A DNA stretch of 64,000 bases. It comes from Vicinamibacteraceae bacterium. GTDB lineage: Bacteria > Planctomycetota > Phycisphaerae > Phycisphaerales > UBA5793. Shown here piece by piece: positions 16,757 through 29,637 of this stretch; the stretch's first letter is position 1; each line of letters opens with the position of its first letter. The notes below the pieces were generated by a model. The model was not told the origin of the DNA and did not search any database. It worked only from the letters and a program-made list of their open reading frames with translations. The stretch is taken from positions 1 to 64,000 of the forward strand of contig WYBR01000028.1 in NCBI GenBank assembly GCA_011525805.1, read 5' to 3'. A program made the position numbers and the translations under genes.

Positions 16757-18001
16757 ATGCTGAATCACCTCCGATCGTTCACGGCCGCCGCGATTCTGAG
16801 CGCGACGACGTTGCTGATGTGTCCCGCGACCAGTCTGTGCCAGGACGAGCCGCCGGCCGCCGAAGCCGCGCTCATCGACGCCGCGGAAGCAGCGCGTCAG
16901 AGACTCATCGACGCGACGCCGACGGGTGGAACCGCGCCGCCTGAACTGCTTCGCGCTTTCGCCGATGCGTGGGAGGCGTACCTCGCCGAATTCCCCAAGG
17001 GCGATCGCGCCCCGCAGGCGCGCTCGACCATCCTCTCGTGCCTGATGCGCCTCGACGATCCGGCGCGCGTCGTGGAGACCGTGGACCGCTGGTTCGCGGG
17101 CGATGCGCTCACGCCCCCTGAGTTCGACCGGGCGCTGAAGATGCGTTTCGCGGCGGTGGAGCGGCTCCGCGGCCCCGAGGCGGCGCTGCGCGAGGCCGAC
17201 GCCGCCATCAGCGCCGCGCAGGAGAAGCACGTCCGCCTCCTGCTCGCCAAGTCGGCGATCTCGGGCCTGAGTGCTGCGCAGCGCCTCGCGATCATCGACG
17301 AGGCGATCCGCGCCTCAAGCGGCGTCGCCGCCCTCCGCGCCGAGTCGCTGGCGAGCAAAGCGCTCGTCCTCATGGAGCAGGGCGGCGAGGAGCGCGCGGC
17401 CGAAGCGCGGAAACTCCTCGATGAAGCGAGCGGCCTCGACCCGCGGGCGCCGAGCGTCACCCGCGCCCACATGCAGATGCGCAGCCGTGCCGAGGCCCTC
17501 GAGGGCCAGGGCGACATCGCCCCCGGCAAGGCCGCCCCCCTCTTCGCACTCAACAACATCCGCACCAACGAAGTCGTCAAACTCGAAGACCTGCGCGGCA
17601 AGGTGGTCCTGCTCGATTTCTGGGCGACGTGGTGCGGGCCATGCCTGAGCCTCATGGACTCGCTCCTCGCCGATCTGCACCGCGACTACGCGGACGACGG
17701 CCTGGTCATCGTCGGCGTCGGCACGAACTGGCGCGGCGAGACCGCTGCGAAGCAACTCGAATGGGCCGAGGCGAAGGATCAGCCCATCCTCCGCGGCTCG
17801 CAGCGCACCCGCGGCCAGTGCAACTGGCTCAAGGTCCACGACCCGACGAACGAAGTCGCGCAGACCTACGGCGTGCAGGGCATCCCCTTCTGCGTCCTCA
17901 TCGACAAGGAAGGCAGGATCGTCCTTGCCGGCAACGGCCACGCGCTCAAGGCGGACATTCTCAAGTACGTGCAGGAGCACTGCGGCAAGTCGGGGAACTG
18001 A
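16757..18001 (+). CDS. Secreted TlpA/ResA-like thioredoxin protein with a helical N-terminal region
   Basis: 414 residues; ATG with AAAGGAG six bases upstream. An N-terminal signal (AAAILSATTLLMCPATSLC) is followed by ~220 residues of helical, TPR-like sequence. The C-terminal ~150 residues form a thioredoxin domain: APLFALNNIRTNEVVKLEDL, the redox motif WATWCGPC and the cis-Pro loop GVQGIPFCVLID. It probably reduces or isomerises disulphides outside the cytoplasm, fitting the many Cys-containing secreted proteins nearby. The last ~33 codons plus six bases beyond the stop are repeated, slightly diverged, at 19501-19609. It is convergent with the kelch-like gene. Confidence 0.88.
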   Translation: MLNHLRSFTAAAILSATTLLMCPATSLCQDEPPAAEAALIDAAEAARQRLIDATPTGGTAPPELLRAFADAWEAYLAEFPKGDRAPQARSTILSCLMRLDDPARVVETVDRWFAGDALTPPEFDRALKMRFAAVERLRGPEAALREADAAISAAQEKHVRLLLAKSAISGLSAAQRLAIIDEAIRASSGVAALRAESLASKALVLMEQGGEERAAEARKLLDEASGLDPRAPSVTRAHMQMRSRAEALEGQGDIAPGKAAPLFALNNIRTNEVVKLEDLRGKVVLLDFWATWCGPCLSLMDSLLADLHRDYADDGLVIVGVGTNWRGETAAKQLEWAEAKDQPILRGSQRTRGQCNWLKVHDPTNEVAQTYGVQGIPFCVLIDKEGRIVLAGNGHALKADILKYVQEHCGKSGN

Positions 18002-18050
18002 GGCCGGAGACGTTTGGCGACGAGCACCGGCCAACGGCACGCTGTTCCGC

Positions 18051-19292: not shown

Positions 19293-19500
19293 AATGAGCC
19301 TCCCCTCTTCTTGCCGGTCCACCGGCGCGGTGGTCAGAGGATCGTAACGCCTTCGTGTCCGTGCGCTCATGCGGAACCGGCCGCGCCCGGAACTTCGGGG
19401 TGGATTGCCTGCTGCTCTCCGGACACCCGCTGCAGATCCTGCGACTCTCTTTCACTTGGCCGTGAGAGGCGGCGCGCCATTCTGCATTCCTTATCCGTCC

Positions 19501-19609
19501 CGACAAGGACGGCAAGATCGTCTACGCCGGCAACGGCCACGCGCTCAAGGCGGACATTCTCAAGTACGTGCAGGAGCACTGCAACAAGTCGGGGAACTGA
19601 GGCCGCGGC
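19501..19609 (+). pseudogene. Duplicated 3' end of the thioredoxin-like gene
   Basis: About 105 bases match 17905-18009 with seven differences (~93%), from DKDGKIVYAGNGHALKADIL through the stop codon and the following GAGGCCG. The matching frame is open only from about 19490 and lacks a start and the thioredoxin motif. Coding changes relative to the intact gene are conservative or residue-plausible (E to D, R to K, L to Y, G to N), which suggests the source was a working paralogue rather than a decaying copy. The rest of 19293-20011 holds a promoter and no other gene. Confidence 0.85.
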
Positions 19610-21115: not shown

Positions 21116-21460
21116 TCAACGGTTCTCAAAATACAGTGCCCGGTCGAACCAGAGATCGGACTTGGCGATCATGCGCCGCGTCAGCGCCTGGCGGCGCGAG
21201 GCGGCGCGCTGGGCGTGCCACCAGAGCGGCACGTCCAGTCGCAGGCGGCGCGCGAGGAAGGAGTCGCGCAGGAGGCGCATCAGCGGGCGGATGCCGTTGA
21301 GTTTGAGCAGCGCATCGTCAAGGGACTTGAAGACCTCCGCTTGGCCGGGGTCGCCGTGGCGGCCCGCGCGTCGTCTCAAGCGCGACTCGCGCCGAGCGAC
21401 ATTGCTCGTCACGCAGGAGGTCTGGTCGAGTAGTCGCAGATGTGATCTGCACCCGCTCCG
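21116..21460 (-). pseudogene. Chimeric remnant: SNVAR-domain end fused to a duplicated SecA-like 3' end
   Basis: Bases 21119-21370 are ~95% identical to 23359-23610, the last ~83 codons of the SecA-like gene (GDPGQAEVFKSLDDALLKLN to ALYFENR), with only Q-to-H and R-to-D type changes. Upstream in the same frame, instead of SecA sequence, comes RLLDQTSCVTSNVAR, which matches the closing motif of the shared C-terminal domain (CATSNVAR). So the end of one gene family is joined to the tail of another. No start codon or upstream domain remains. Confidence 0.8.
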
Positions 21461-21475
21461 CGGATAAGTGTCGAC

Positions 21476-23354: not shown

Positions 23355-25424
23355 TTATCTATTCTCGAAATACAGCGCCCGGTCGAACCAGAGGTCGGAC
23401 TTGGCGATCATGCGCCGCGTCAGCGCCTGGCGGCGCGAGGCGGCGCGCTGGGCGTGCCACCAGAGCGGCACGTCCAGTCGCAGGCGGCGCGCGAGGAACG
23501 AACGGCGCAGCAGGCGCATCAGCGGCCGGATGCCGTTGAGTTTGAGCAGCGCATCGTCAAGGGACTTGAAGACCTCCGCCTGGCCGGGGTCGCCCTGGCG
23601 CCCGGCGCGGCCGAAGAGTTGCCGATCGATGCGGCGCGAGTCGTGCCGCTCGGTCGCGATCACCACCAGGCCGCCGAGGTCCGCCACCCCAGGGCCGAGG
23701 AGAATGTCCGTGCCGCGGCCGGCCATGTTGGTGGCGACGGTGACGGCGCCGAGTTTGCCCGCAGCCGCGACGATCACTGCCTCTTCCTCGTGGCGGACCG
23801 CGTTGAGCACGCGGTGCGGGATGGCGCGCTGCTCGAGGAGGCGCGACATCGCCTCGCTCGCCTCGACGCTGCGCGTGCCGATGAGCACGGGCCGCCCCCT
23901 CCGGTTCAGTTCCACGACGCGGTTCGCCACCGCCTCAAACTTGGCGTCGCGGTCGAGGAACATGCGGTCGGGCCGTTGCCGGCGGATCATCGGCTTGTGC
24001 GTCGGAATGCGCACGACGGGCAGGCGGTAGATGCTCCACATCTCCTTGCGGACTTCCCACGCCGTGCCGGTCATGCCGCTGAGTCGGCGAAAGAGTTGGA
24101 AAAACCGCTGGTAACTGATGCGGGCCATGGTTTCGCGGGGCGCGGTGACCTTGAGCCCCTCCTTGGCCTGGACCGCCTGGTGCAGGCCGAGTTGCCACTG
24201 CCGCCCTTCGAGGACGCGGCCGGTCTGCGGATCCACGATGTGCACGTCGCCGTCGCGGACGATGTAGTGATCCTCGATGTGGTAGAGTTCTCGGGCGACG
24301 AGCGCCTGGGTAACGAGTTCGGCCCGGCGGCGAGGGCCAGACCAGAACGCCGGCAGCGCGTCGGCGACCTCCGCGAGGCGCTCGCGCCCCGAGTCGGTGA
24401 GATCGACGCGGTGCTGCTGGACGTCGACGGCGTAATGCTCGCCGCGGCGGAGTTTCGCGGCCAGTTCGGCGGCGGTGTAGTAGTACTGCGCCGACTTGTC
24501 CTCGCCCCCCTCGGAGCCGATGATCGCCGGCGTCGTCGCCTGGTCGATGAGAACGCTGTCCGCCTCGTCGATGATGGCGGAGTAAAGCCCGCGCTGCACG
24601 ATGCGGCCTGTCCACAACTCGCGCGGACCCCCCATCGCCGTGTCCGTCACCTCGTCGAGCAGCAGCGCCGAGACGCGCGGCTGAAGGGGCGCGTGCAGTT
24701 TGTCGCGCAGGTAGTCGAAGATCAGTTGCTGGTCGGTGATGTAGGTGATGTCGCGCGAGTAGGCTTCGAGGCGCTCGGGAGGCGGGCTCTGGTCCTGCAC
24801 GACGCCGACGCTCAGTCCGAGGCGCTTGTAGATCGGGCCGTTGAGTTCGGCGTCGCGCCGGGCGAGGTAGTCGTTGACGGTGACGACGTGCGTGCCGTAG
24901 CCCATCCATCCCTGGACCGCGGCGGTGAGGCAGGCGGTGACGGTCTTGCCTTCGCCCGTGGCCATTTCGGCCAGGCAGCCGTCCTCCATGACCCACGCGC
25001 CCATGACCTGCTCGACGTAGAGGCGCAGGCCGACGGTGCGGCGGACGGCCTCGCGCACGACGGCGAAAGCGTGGGTGCGGGCGTCGTGGTCGCGCCGGCC
25101 GCGCCGCGCCGCTTCGCGGGCGGCCTCGATCTGCTCGTCGAAGGCCGTTTCGGACAGCCGCAGGAACGAATCGCTCAGCCGGACGACGCCTTCGCCCGCG
25201 GCGCGGAGGCGACGGCGCGACCAGGTCGCGCGCCGCGCGGCCCCGATGAGCGTCTCGTTGTAGCGGTCGAGTTCCTTGAGTTCGCGCGGCCGGGGCGGGC
25301 GATAGGAGAACGGCCGCCAGAGGCGCTGCGTGCTCCGCTCGGAGCCCGGCGCCGTCGCGGGCGCCACCCCGGCCGGCCCGTCGCCATCGCTTCCTCCGGG
25401 TTGGACGCGAGCGCGCACCGCCAT
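23355..25424 (-). CDS. Shortened SecA-like ATPase
   Basis: 689 residues. The SecA motor is intact: Walker A ATGEGKT (155-161), DEADSVLID (286-294), SGMTGTA (449-455), ATNMAGRGTDI (564-574) and LFGRAGRQGDPG (603-614). The preprotein-binding region between the ATPase halves is present in outline. Only ~75 residues follow the last motif, so most of the helical scaffold/wing region and the C-terminal zinc finger of a housekeeping SecA (usually 830-1000 residues) are missing. It is therefore a paralogue, not the general SecA. Its ATG overlaps the stop of the M50 gene (TGATG), implying translational coupling and a shared job. The 3' end is duplicated at 21119-21370. Confidence 0.9.
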   Translation of the reverse strand: MAVRARVQPGGSDGDGPAGVAPATAPGSERSTQRLWRPFSYRPPRPRELKELDRYNETLIGAARRATWSRRRLRAAGEGVVRLSDSFLRLSETAFDEQIEAAREAARRGRRDHDARTHAFAVVREAVRRTVGLRLYVEQVMGAWVMEDGCLAEMATGEGKTVTACLTAAVQGWMGYGTHVVTVNDYLARRDAELNGPIYKRLGLSVGVVQDQSPPPERLEAYSRDITYITDQQLIFDYLRDKLHAPLQPRVSALLLDEVTDTAMGGPRELWTGRIVQRGLYSAIIDEADSVLIDQATTPAIIGSEGGEDKSAQYYYTAAELAAKLRRGEHYAVDVQQHRVDLTDSGRERLAEVADALPAFWSGPRRRAELVTQALVARELYHIEDHYIVRDGDVHIVDPQTGRVLEGRQWQLGLHQAVQAKEGLKVTAPRETMARISYQRFFQLFRRLSGMTGTAWEVRKEMWSIYRLPVVRIPTHKPMIRRQRPDRMFLDRDAKFEAVANRVVELNRRGRPVLIGTRSVEASEAMSRLLEQRAIPHRVLNAVRHEEEAVIVAAAGKLGAVTVATNMAGRGTDILLGPGVADLGGLVVIATERHDSRRIDRQLFGRAGRQGDPGQAEVFKSLDDALLKLNGIRPLMRLLRRSFLARRLRLDVPLWWHAQRAASRRQALTRRMIAKSDLWFDRALYFENR

Positions 25425-27673
25425 CAGAGTTCAAACCTCTCGCTGAGCGCCTGGCGCGCGCGGCGGTACCACTGCCGGGCGAGCGGCTCGGATGGCCGGC
25501 TGAGGCGCACGCGCACGCGCGTTCCGGGCAGCGTGCCCAGCGCCGCCCCTTCGCCGCCCCCATCCAGGCCGCGCTCGCGCAGCGGCGTTCGCGGCCGGAG
25601 CGTGATGAGCCACTGCGGGGCGAGCGTCTGGCGACCCTGCGCATCCGTCGGGTCCAGGGCGATCCCGCCCCCGCGCACGTTCAGCGAGAGCGACTCGTGG
25701 GGCAGCGCCCGCGTCGCGGTGCGGCCGGACCGCTCTACGTCAAGGTCAAACTCGAGAACCTCGTCGAGGTGGTCGTACAGCCGGCCCTCGATGCGCACCG
25801 ACGCCGCGTCGGCCTCCGTCAGCCCGTTCGGAAACACCCACGCGAAGTCGCGGTCGTCCACAAAGGCGCGGATGACCATCTCATCGAGCGTGGCGAGGAG
25901 CATGAGCGGCTCGCCGCGCTGAATGAAGGCGCCGACCCGGCTGTGAAGTTGAGGAGCGACGATCAGGCCGCTGAAGGGCGCGCGAACGTCCATCTCCGCG
26001 ATGATCTCCTCGACCGTCTCGAGCCGATCGACCGCGTCGGCGTAGAGGAGGTCGGAGACCTGCCACTCCGAAACGCCCTCCGCGAGCGCGGCGTCGCGGC
26101 GCACGCGCTCAAGTTCGAGGCCGGCCGCGGCTCGGGCGAGTTGATGCTCCATCTCGGGATTGAAGAGCGTGAAGAGCGGCTCGCCCGCGGCGACCTCCTC
26201 CCCGTTGCTGACGTAGAGGCGCTCGAGGAAGCCGTCCTGCGCCGCCCGGCAGGTGAGGCGCTCGAGCGGATCGACCACGCCGATCGCGTGGACGCGCGCC
26301 GGCATCGGAACGAACCCGACGAAGCCCACCGCCAGCGCGATCAGCCCGAAGGACACGACGACGGCCCGCACGCGGACCAGTTGCAGACTCGGCTCGGTGA
26401 GGACGTAACTGAGCCCCTTGACGATCGGCGCCCCAAGCCACATCACCGCGCCGAACAGGCCCACAAGAAGGCCGAAGACGAAGTACTGCTGCGCCACGAA
26501 GAGCACGATGGTGAACATGACCAGAAGCCGGTACGGGAAGGCGAGCACCGCGTGCGTGACCATGATCGCCCCCTCCGTCCGGTCGTGCAGCGTCGGGCAC
26601 GGCTCGCCCTTGACGCCGAAGGCATACCGCCGCGTCATCCACTTGAGCAGTTCGTGCGAGCGCGTCGAGAGGTTGGGGATCTCAGCAAGGTCGGCGAGGA
26701 TGTAGTACCCGTCGTAGCGCAGCAGCGGGTTGATGTTGAACAGCAGCGTCGCCACCGACGCGACGAACATCACGTTGTACGCAATGGTGTGCGCCAGCCC
26801 GGCCTCGGTGCGGGCCCAGACGATCGCCGCGACGCAGGCGACCGCCATCTCGCACAGGACGCCGGCGCTGCTCACGAGAATGCGGCGCCACTTGCTCGGA
26901 AAGGCCCAACTCGCGGTCGCGTCGCAGTAGGGAATCGGCAGGACGATCATGAACATGATGCCGATCTCCGTCACGCGGCCGCCGCAGGCCTTGCACGCAA
27001 ACCCGTGCCCGAGTTCGTGGATCACCTTCAGCGCGAGGAACGAGAGCGAGAGCAGCGGGAGGTTCTCGACGGCGATGACGGAGTTGAGCGAGCCGGCCAG
27101 TTCCTCCCACCGCGGCAGCACGGCGCGGAGAGCCAGCGCGAAGAGCACGAGCAGCGCCAGCAGCCCCCAGCGGCTGAAGACGAGGCGCGCCGGCTCGGCG
27201 AACTTCGCGAGGAACCGCTCGGGGTTGAAAAGCGGCACGGTCCAGAAGAGGTAGTTGCCCGTAAACTCGCGGAAGCGCTGCTCGCGGATCTGCTCGATGC
27301 GCTCGCGCAGGCGCTGGATGTCCACGGGCAGGTCGTTGCGCAGCAGGCCGAACAACTGGAGTTGGGCGAGCAGGTCGATGCAGTCGCGCTGCGTCGGGGC
27401 CTCGTCGCCGAGTTGGGCGTTGCAGACGTCCCACGCCTCCTGCACCGTGCGCTGGCCGTCGAGCAGGCCCAGGAACCGGTACGCCGCCGCGTTGAATCGG
27501 TAAAACTTGCTGCTCGTCGGATCGCCGAGAATGAACCACGTCTGGCCGCGATACGTGTGCCGCCGCACCACGAGGTGGGCGCTGAGGCGCGGCTTGAACT
27601 CCGCGACGCGGTACCAGAGTTCACTGAATGTGCGGCTGATGTCGGCCATGTCGGGTTCACTCGTCGCGGGCAT
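25424..27673 (-). CDS. PqqD-like / M50 zinc protease / HlyD fusion membrane protein
   Basis: 749 residues. Residues ~40-115 resemble a PqqD-type winged helix, the recognition fold for peptide precursors (FYRFNAAAYRFLGLLDG, LLAQLQLFGLL). Residues ~165-450 form a multi-pass site-2-type protease with HELGH (219-223) and the third zinc ligand in NINPLLRYDGYY (Asp321). Residues ~455-650 are a membrane-fusion (HlyD/lipoyl-like) domain: CRAAQDGFLERLYVSNGEEV, VRAPFSGLIVAPQ, RVGAFIQRGEPL. The start may instead be the ATG at 27649. It is coupled by overlap to the SecA-like gene. It probably clips or exports a peptide or protein across the inner membrane; the substrate is unknown. Confidence 0.88.
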   Translation of the reverse strand: MPATSEPDMADISRTFSELWYRVAEFKPRLSAHLVVRRHTYRGQTWFILGDPTSSKFYRFNAAAYRFLGLLDGQRTVQEAWDVCNAQLGDEAPTQRDCIDLLAQLQLFGLLRNDLPVDIQRLRERIEQIREQRFREFTGNYLFWTVPLFNPERFLAKFAEPARLVFSRWGLLALLVLFALALRAVLPRWEELAGSLNSVIAVENLPLLSLSFLALKVIHELGHGFACKACGGRVTEIGIMFMIVLPIPYCDATASWAFPSKWRRILVSSAGVLCEMAVACVAAIVWARTEAGLAHTIAYNVMFVASVATLLFNINPLLRYDGYYILADLAEIPNLSTRSHELLKWMTRRYAFGVKGEPCPTLHDRTEGAIMVTHAVLAFPYRLLVMFTIVLFVAQQYFVFGLLVGLFGAVMWLGAPIVKGLSYVLTEPSLQLVRVRAVVVSFGLIALAVGFVGFVPMPARVHAIGVVDPLERLTCRAAQDGFLERLYVSNGEEVAAGEPLFTLFNPEMEHQLARAAAGLELERVRRDAALAEGVSEWQVSDLLYADAVDRLETVEEIIAEMDVRAPFSGLIVAPQLHSRVGAFIQRGEPLMLLATLDEMVIRAFVDDRDFAWVFPNGLTEADAASVRIEGRLYDHLDEVLEFDLDVERSGRTATRALPHESLSLNVRGGGIALDPTDAQGRQTLAPQWLITLRPRTPLRERGLDGGGEGAALGTLPGTRVRVRLSRPSEPLARQWYRRARQALSERFEL

Positions 27674-27746
27674 CCCACGATTCGCCCAGCCTCATCGTGG
27701 GCGTTGCTTCTTCACGCCACGATTCGCCCAGCCTCATCGTGGGCGT
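27674..27746. repeat. Tandem pair of short CCCACGAT...ATCGTGGGCG palindromes
   Basis: Copies at 27674-27703 and 27716-27746 share CCACGATTCGCCCAGCCTCA followed by TCGTGGGCG. Each can form a hairpin. They lie inside the operon, in the gap between the GAF/HlyD gene and the M50 gene, the first copy abutting the M50 start region. They could modulate mRNA stability or relative expression. Related to 719-796 and 16663-16703. Confidence 0.75.
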
Positions 27747-27753
27747 GGTCGCT

Positions 27754-29637
27754 TCACCACCAGAAGCGCAGACGGATCGCGTCGAAGAGCGGCCGGGTGT
27801 AGATCGTGAAGAGGTCGGTCCTCCGTCCCCACACCTTGGCCTGCCCCTCCATGCCCGGTCGCAGCCAGTCGGGCGGCTCGATCAGTTCGACTTCGACGCG
27901 ATACACGTTCTTCTGCTGAAGCACCTCGGAGGCGGGCGTGATTCGCGTCACGCGGAAGTTGATCTTTTCCGCGGGCCGTGCGGTCACGATGAGTGTGCCG
28001 CGCTGCCCCACCTCGACGCGCGCGATGCCGCTCTCGGGAATGAGCGCCACGGCGGTGATGGTGTCGAGGCGGGCGATTTCGATGAGCGGCCGGCTCGCCT
28101 CGACCACCTCGCCGAGGCGATCTTCAAGATCGCCCTGCGTCACCACGCCCGAGATCGGCGCGACGATCAACGCCTGATCGACGCGGTATTTCAAGCGCTC
28201 GGCATCCGCCTCCGCCACGCGGCGCCGGGCGTCGACCTGGGCGGCGTCGGCCGTCTTGCCCTGCGTGCGTGCCGCATCCGCCTGAATGCGCAGGCGCTGA
28301 ATCTCGCCGAGCGTGGCCTGGAGTTCCAGGCGATCCTCGCGCGTGTCGAGGGCAAAGAGCGGCGTCACACCCGCCTCCACGGCGTCCCCGGGCTTGACAA
28401 ACACCTCGTCAAGACGGCCGGAGTACGGCGGCGAGATCTCGCGCCGCTCGTCCGCGATGATGCGGCCCGTCCCCACCGCGCGGTCGCGCACCGGGACCGC
28501 CAGTGAGATCACCAGCAGCAGCAGCGCCGCGAGCAGAAACATCTTGATGCCTGTCTTCTGCGGCCCGACGAGCGTCTCGGAGAGATCAACGACACGGTCG
28601 CGGCTGACGGCGAGCACGCCGCGGTCAGCCATGCGCCGCGTCCACACCATCGGGCCGATGTATTCGGCGATGAGGCGCAGGAGGCGCAGCGTCGCGTCGT
28701 TGAAGGGGTCAGAGGCGTTTCGCTCCATGACGACGACGCCGATCAGCCCCTCCTCGATGCGAAGCGGGAAACTCGCGATCGCGCACGGGCCGAATCGCTC
28801 GCTCAGCGAGGCGTGCGCGCGGACGACGCGCCGCTCGGAGGGATCGGCGTCGGCGGGCTGGGGGAAGCGGATCTCGGTGTCCTGGTCGGCGCACTCCTCC
28901 ATCAGGGCTTCGAGCGCTTCGGCGAACTCGCTGCGGCGGTCGAGATGCTCCGCCCCGCCGATGGCGACGACGCGCACGCCGTGTCCGTGGACCAGCCCGA
29001 TCGACACGCGCAGGCAGCCGAAGCGGCGCTGAAGTTCGTTGCAGAACATCGCGGCCATCTCGGCCGTGTCGTGCCCCTGGTTGGACTTGTCGATGAGATC
29101 GAGCGCCTCGCGCAACTGGATCTTGGACTCGGCCTCGACGAACGCCTGCTGCCGCCAGAGGAACGCTTCGAACGCGAGGGTGCTCAGTTCGAGTCGCTTG
29201 AGCCCTTCCTCGAGTTCCTGCTCGGGCCGGTCGGGCACGATGCACAGCGACGCGCCGTGCGGCCGGCCGGCGAGCATGAGCGGCGCCGCCAGCACGCGGA
29301 ACTCCGGCTCGGCCGAGAGCAACCCCGTCGTCGCGGCCACCTGGTCGAGCACCGGCTTGTTCTCCCGCGCCGCCCGCGCCGCGATCTCGGTCAGCCGCCG
29401 GTACTGCTTGGGGGTGATCGCAAAGCGCGGATCGACCTCGTGCCGGACCGTCGAGCCGCCCGGCTGTTCGCGCGTCGGCCGCAGCAGGATGACGCCGGAG
29501 ACGGCCTGGACGAGGGCGCACTGCCGCTTGATGAGGTCCCCCAGGAACGCATCGACGCCGTGGCCGGGGCGCAGCGGCCCCGATCCCTCCACCTCCGTTG
29601 AGGTCGATGCGGATATGGAGACGACCTGTTCGTCCAT
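27754..29637 (-). CDS. Double-GAF / HlyD membrane-fusion protein
   Basis: 627 residues with an unusual sensor-plus-adaptor architecture. Two GAF-like domains occupy roughly residues 30-165 and 180-345 (second one with RVSIGLVHGHGVRVVAIGG and EEGLIGVVVMERN). One transmembrane helix follows (MFLLAALLLLVISLAVPV, ~380-398). The rest is a periplasmic HlyD/RND-type adaptor: ISPPYSGRLDEVFVKPGDAV, a coiled-coil hairpin, LIVAPISGVVTQGDLED, and a beta-barrel with VALIPESGIARVEVGQRG. Cytoplasmic ligand sensing could gate the adaptor. It is third in a five-gene minus-strand operon, between DUF3467 and the M50 fusion. Confidence 0.87.
   Translation of the reverse strand: MDEQVVSISASTSTEVEGSGPLRPGHGVDAFLGDLIKRQCALVQAVSGVILLRPTREQPGGSTVRHEVDPRFAITPKQYRRLTEIAARAARENKPVLDQVAATTGLLSAEPEFRVLAAPLMLAGRPHGASLCIVPDRPEQELEEGLKRLELSTLAFEAFLWRQQAFVEAESKIQLREALDLIDKSNQGHDTAEMAAMFCNELQRRFGCLRVSIGLVHGHGVRVVAIGGAEHLDRRSEFAEALEALMEECADQDTEIRFPQPADADPSERRVVRAHASLSERFGPCAIASFPLRIEEGLIGVVVMERNASDPFNDATLRLLRLIAEYIGPMVWTRRMADRGVLAVSRDRVVDLSETLVGPQKTGIKMFLLAALLLLVISLAVPVRDRAVGTGRIIADERREISPPYSGRLDEVFVKPGDAVEAGVTPLFALDTREDRLELQATLGEIQRLRIQADAARTQGKTADAAQVDARRRVAEADAERLKYRVDQALIVAPISGVVTQGDLEDRLGEVVEASRPLIEIARLDTITAVALIPESGIARVEVGQRGTLIVTARPAEKINFRVTRITPASEVLQQKNVYRVEVELIEPPDWLRPGMEGQAKVWGRRTDLFTIYTRPLFDAIRLRFWW

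Follow-up and report, generated by a model that had tools for sequence, protein, structure and literature searches.

The G-SecA interval and its contents

Two questions are raised by the window, the whole 64,000-nucleotide stretch of planctomycete DNA that was analysed: how did the closing codons of a lost gene come to precede, in frame, a displaced fragment of a SecA-like gene, and is the DNA encoding its terminal SNVAR motif itself a site of recombination? The window belongs to a 128-kb contig of a 4.54-Mb draft genome in 138 contigs. On the left, the interval is bordered by gene G (P0008; 16694-18001, plus strand), which encodes a TlpA/ResA-like thioredoxin-domain protein recognized by the Pfam AhpC-TSA/Redoxin and NCBIfam ResA-like models. 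The right border is a SecA-like ATPase of 689 residues (P0005; 23355-25424, minus strand), with the Pfam domains SecA_DEAD, SecA_PP_bind and P-loop_SecA. Comparison with the relatives G001 to G004 showed that gene G orthologs adjoin SecA in all four.

Three genes lie between the borders, and truncated copies of the two border genes, in the correct orientation, separate them. The first, P0007 (18051-19370, minus strand), encodes a kelch-repeat protein with an SNV C-terminal domain ending in CATSNVARVE. It is followed by Gtail' (19489-19605, plus strand), a copy of the final 121 bp of gene G (17886-18006) with 89% identity. The second, P0002 (20012-21013, plus strand), encodes a secreted SNV-domain protein ending in CATSNVARVP and is flanked on its other side by SecAtail' (21123-21370, minus strand), so that homologs of the two border genes enclose it. 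SecAtail' is 94.8% identical to the final 248 bp of the SecA-like gene (23362-23609). Beyond a short joint (21371-21385), made up of the position of the lost gene's stop codon and about 12 bp of unassigned sequence, lies the relic (21386-21469, minus strand; firm part 21386-21454), the remaining 3' portion of a lost SNV-domain gene. The third gene, P0003 (21882-23204, plus strand), encodes a secreted chimera of an N-terminal family, a different SNV domain and a C-terminal extension. The window therefore reads as three blocks in series, G-P0007, Gtail'-P0002-SecAtail' and relic-P0003-SecA. Since the N-termini of P0007, P0002 and P0003 are mutually unrelated, plain duplication cannot yield this series.

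The interval differs in content among the relatives. It is empty in G003, where G and SecA stand back to back with their stop codons a few bp apart. In G001 and G004 it holds a single kelch-SNV gene oriented as P0007, and the P0007 counterparts at this position share 38% (G001) and 49% (G004) identity with it. In G002 the 3' relic of an SNV gene adjoins G and is followed by a different gene. The G-SecA interval is thus a hypervariable slot for secreted-protein genes, and SNV-end relics occur in it twice, in the window and in G002. Orthology of the two relics is unsupported, as their subtypes differ, and P0003 could not be assigned as an ortholog of the G002 gene Q, the likeness being confined to the SNV domain and a weak similarity of the extension.

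P0005 passes the Pfam cut-offs for the SecA DEAD, preprotein cross-linking and P-loop domains, and scores under the NCBIfam cut-offs for the SecA and SecA2 equivalogs, which indicates an accessory or divergent SecA. Its orthologs in four congeners share 82-90% identity with it, G002 being closest (90%); the nearest named relatives are from "uncultured planctomycete isolate PLA5" (89%), Planctomycetota KLAP200 (85%) and Phycisphaerales UBA5793 (82%). Upstream of P0005 on its own strand are genes for a PqqD-M50 protease-HlyD fusion and a GAF-HlyD protein. The gene content of 23355-29637 suggests an accessory export system around P0005.

The relic and its joint with the SecA fragment

SecAtail' is preceded, in frame and with no intervening stop codon, by RLLDQTSCVTSNVAR at 21392-21436 (minus strand). 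The first-pass annotation had read this sequence as the closing motif of the SNV family, and genome-wide searches bear the reading out. A consensus sequence of 24 residues, representing the family end, hits 21386-21454 (E=5.8e-4), and at the DNA level the relic is 82% identical over 50 bp to a gene end at G000:C77 (E=1e-6) and 72-84% identical to other family ends over at least 38 bp. A profile HMM of the domain, made from 170 matches, aligns the relic to model positions 68-93 (E=0.008). The short length of the match, a likeness of 15 residues, might invite the view that it arose by chance; given its significance across the whole genome for both protein and DNA, and the presence of such genes in the slots of the relatives, we consider this extremely improbable.

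The relic begins near TYPRSGC (HMM position 68) and includes the terminal Glu, comprising about 70 bases or 23-26 codons. It ends in SNVAR-R-E, where the family consensus is SNVAR-I-E followed by a stop codon. TCG occupies the position of the stop, whereas in P0007 and in the G001 gene the last Glu codon and the stop read GAATAG. DNA alignments of the relic with L018 and L020 extend past the last codon and reach the stop position, and the SNVAR codons were therefore not the place of the cut. Homology to SecA in the tail copy reaches its limit at 21370, and in shuffling tests the SecA similarity of the 60 bp beyond was not above chance (p=0.19). As the relic reaches the terminal Glu and the SecA homology stops at 21370, the joint falls within 21371-21385, just past the gene end. 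Extension of the SecA homology through CGGCGCGAGTCGCGC with an in-frame 15-bp deletion was considered and rejected, as its 13 matches in 15 bases were at chance level in the shuffles (p=0.19). CGGCGCGAGTCGCGC is nearly palindromic and in the reverse direction matches SecA equally well (14/15). The relic has a second boundary on its 5' side, at about 21455-21470, which the first-pass annotation left out of account. The intergenic pieces of the interval have few matches elsewhere, and the joints are therefore given as ranges rather than to the base.

The only in-frame start of the open reading frame listed here is a GTG within the CVTSN codons (21412). An in-frame fusion of the relic with SecAtail' has a one-in-three chance of arising, and no function is needed to account for it. 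Inverted and direct repeats were sought at the joints as ends of mobile elements, and only weak pairs with arms 81-88% complementary were found; a search for a tRNA or Rfam RNA as an integration target returned none.

SecAtail' retains an older 3' end, AACCGTTGA, which in the alignment of SecA ends resembles those of G001, G003 and G004 (AACCG-T-TGA-like), whereas the resident SecA end differs. Similarly, Gtail' retains states (TAC and AAG) no longer present in the resident G. Both tail copies are nevertheless closer to the resident G and SecA genes than to those of any relative. Judging from a few sites, their divergence from the resident genes apparently postdates the G002 split and predates the newest changes. 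Alleles of a close relative would be expected to combine such nearness to the resident genes with older states. SecAtail' also carries several changes packed within seven bases at 21261-21277 (CCGTTCG to CGACTCC). The new bases are complementary to the joint bases 21372-21388, and the cluster is perhaps a templated change.

The SNVAR codons and the gene end

The first-pass annotation had further supposed that the lost gene was cut at its very end, with the junction exactly at the SNVAR codons, and that the conserved DNA encoding the motif may be a hotspot or recombination site. The part of this proposal that a family member was joined to SecA sequence holds, and recombination did shape the locus; the cut, as located above, lies past the gene end. 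Nor does the hotspot survive measurement. Codon usage over 139 motif-bearing ends showed Asn AAC at 78% against a background of 79%, Cys at 86% against 83%, and Asp at background, so that the nucleotide conservation beyond the need of the protein that the hotspot would imply is missing from these codons. The exception in its favour is the motif Ser, encoded by AGC in 86% of copies against a background of 27%, besides Val GTC at 71% against 51%, the bias of Thr and Val being mild. Bias is also seen in Gln and Leu codons that precede the motif, and the Ser AGC excess can be explained by inheritance within the AGY codon box, without selection at the DNA level. In the 155 ends analysed, bases of the coding part carry up to 1.8 bits of information; directly past the stop the value drops to about 0.02, near chance. 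The conservation of the gene end is explained by the protein, as the invariant residues include four Cys.

Junctions do not cluster at the motif either. Among the 116 family ends of the genome, only two are relics away from contig edges, that of the window and one at C37:8998-9111. The other partial ends lie at contig edges or are at noise level (two weak matches, C92/C93, E=1.9). The clear recent junctions of the family are found 8-10 codons upstream of the domain, in the linker, and 60-72 bp past the stop, beyond the terminator. Although the relic ends close to the joint, these results make it very unlikely that the DNA encoding SNVAR acts as a recombination site or hotspot. The second orphan relic of an SNV gene end (G000:C37:8998-9111; L184 2499-2612) is at an unrelated location.

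The SNV domain as a possible mobile module

The SNV C-terminal domain has about 150 matches in the genome of the window and 46-127 in each of five relatives, the congeners having 78-127, and no entry for it was found in Pfam or NCBIfam. The structure model predicts an all-beta domain of seven strands (pLDDT 93.5). Comparison of the model with solved PDB structures gave no significant match, and an assignment of function from the fold was therefore given up despite the confident model.

Nine genes share near-identical 3' DNA, six in G002 (L189, L192, L194, L196, L198 and L200) and three in the window's own genome (L190, L193 and L195). The shared DNA starts some 304 bp ahead of the stop, in a Gly/Pro-rich linker, and ends 60-72 bp beyond it. 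This 370-bp module comprises the linker, the SNV domain, the stop codon and a hairpin that has a T run and resembles a terminator; the right end of the module lies just past the hairpin. In four G002 genes whose N-termini have no detectable likeness, the coding part of the module is 92-95% identical, whereas orthologous pairs between species share 83-88% (C210/C99, C166/C29 and C29-/C100). Copies within a genome are thus closer than orthologs, indicating concerted evolution; the joints lie at the two ends of the module and not at SNVAR. P0003 in the window is a chimera. Its residues 7-220 are 59% identical to genes at G002:C29 and G000:C39, its residues 223-440 are 43-44% identical to genes at G000:C8 and G002:C56, and the joint of the chimera, at about residue 220, is at the same linker as that of the module.

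These data are consistent with the SNV domain of this genus being a DNA module of about 370 bp copied by gene conversion between secreted-protein genes with unrelated N-termini, with recombination channelled to the module ends and the SecA slot as one site of whole-gene swaps. We hold this as an evenly balanced proposal.

Proposed origin of the series

With moderate confidence, we propose that the hypervariable slot came to hold three contents in series through two successive insertions of relatives' DNA carrying other slot contents. In each insertion, the right side would have been integrated by homologous crossing-over within SecA and the left side by illegitimate joining, a mechanism named homology-facilitated illegitimate recombination. 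In the first, the 5' flank of P0007 would have been joined to a donor G 121 bp before its end, bringing in P0002. In the second, the resident SecA, at 248 bp before its end, would have been linked with donor DNA immediately beyond the 3' end of an SNV gene, bringing in the relic and P0003. The relic would then be the end of a gene pointing in the same direction as SecA, like the slot genes of G001 and G004, and its body would have been replaced before or during the second insertion. Because such slot genes end beside G, a joint near a gene end would be expected, and a special property of the SNVAR codons is unnecessary. Two insertions by this mechanism are what we infer from the arrangement.

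Tandem duplication of the slot within the chromosome (SecA tail, content and G tail) by unequal sister crossing-over, followed by replacement of the duplicated contents with family members and decay of the rest, is a less likely origin, but one to be taken seriously. It would account for the tail copies being nearest to the resident genes; in addition, P0002 and P0003 have paralogs elsewhere in their own genome, and family members do recombine within a genome. However, it requires at least two gene replacements besides the duplication, and the 3' end of SecAtail' resembles that of G001, G003 and G004 and not that of the resident SecA. The series could also be an assembly artefact, a chimeric contig in which strain variants of the slot were fused; the draft is metagenome-derived and fragmented, and the tail copies do look like strain variants. 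We think this improbable, as the 121- and 248-bp repeats are inexact (89-95% identity), gene order is conserved on both sides along the contig, and G002 independently has a relic in the same slot.

Comparison with known systems

By serial insertion, as we propose, the slot grew between two conserved planctomycete genes, and the arriving secreted-protein genes left broken copies of the border genes that record the order of events. The locus also allows a conserved protein end to be told apart from a DNA recombination site, and it directs attention to the domain with its terminator as an actual unit of recombination in the family. Shared domains likewise recombine between paralogs of one genome in the 3' ends of meningococcal tpsA (PMC3848433) and the repeat families of Mycobacterium tuberculosis (PMC12046097); the piece exchanged here differs in being a C-terminal domain plus terminator, carried on unrelated N-termini.

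The mechanism proposed here was put forward earlier for immunity arrays of the Vibrio T6SS (PMC5361080) and for effector loci in Pseudomonas (PMC11751169). The slot resembles the T6SS effector-immunity loci of Vibrio cholerae (PMC5361080) in that a variable locus lies beside conserved genes, contents are added serially, older contents remain as truncated or orphan pieces, and one homologous and one illegitimate side are proposed. Unlike in those arrays, the contents here are secreted kelch and other SNV-domain proteins in which no toxin-immunity logic was seen, and both border genes persist as truncated copies as well. Integron cassette arrays similarly hold unrelated genes in series at one locus, whereas the joints here have no conserved site and the family genes have no conservation past the stop codon.
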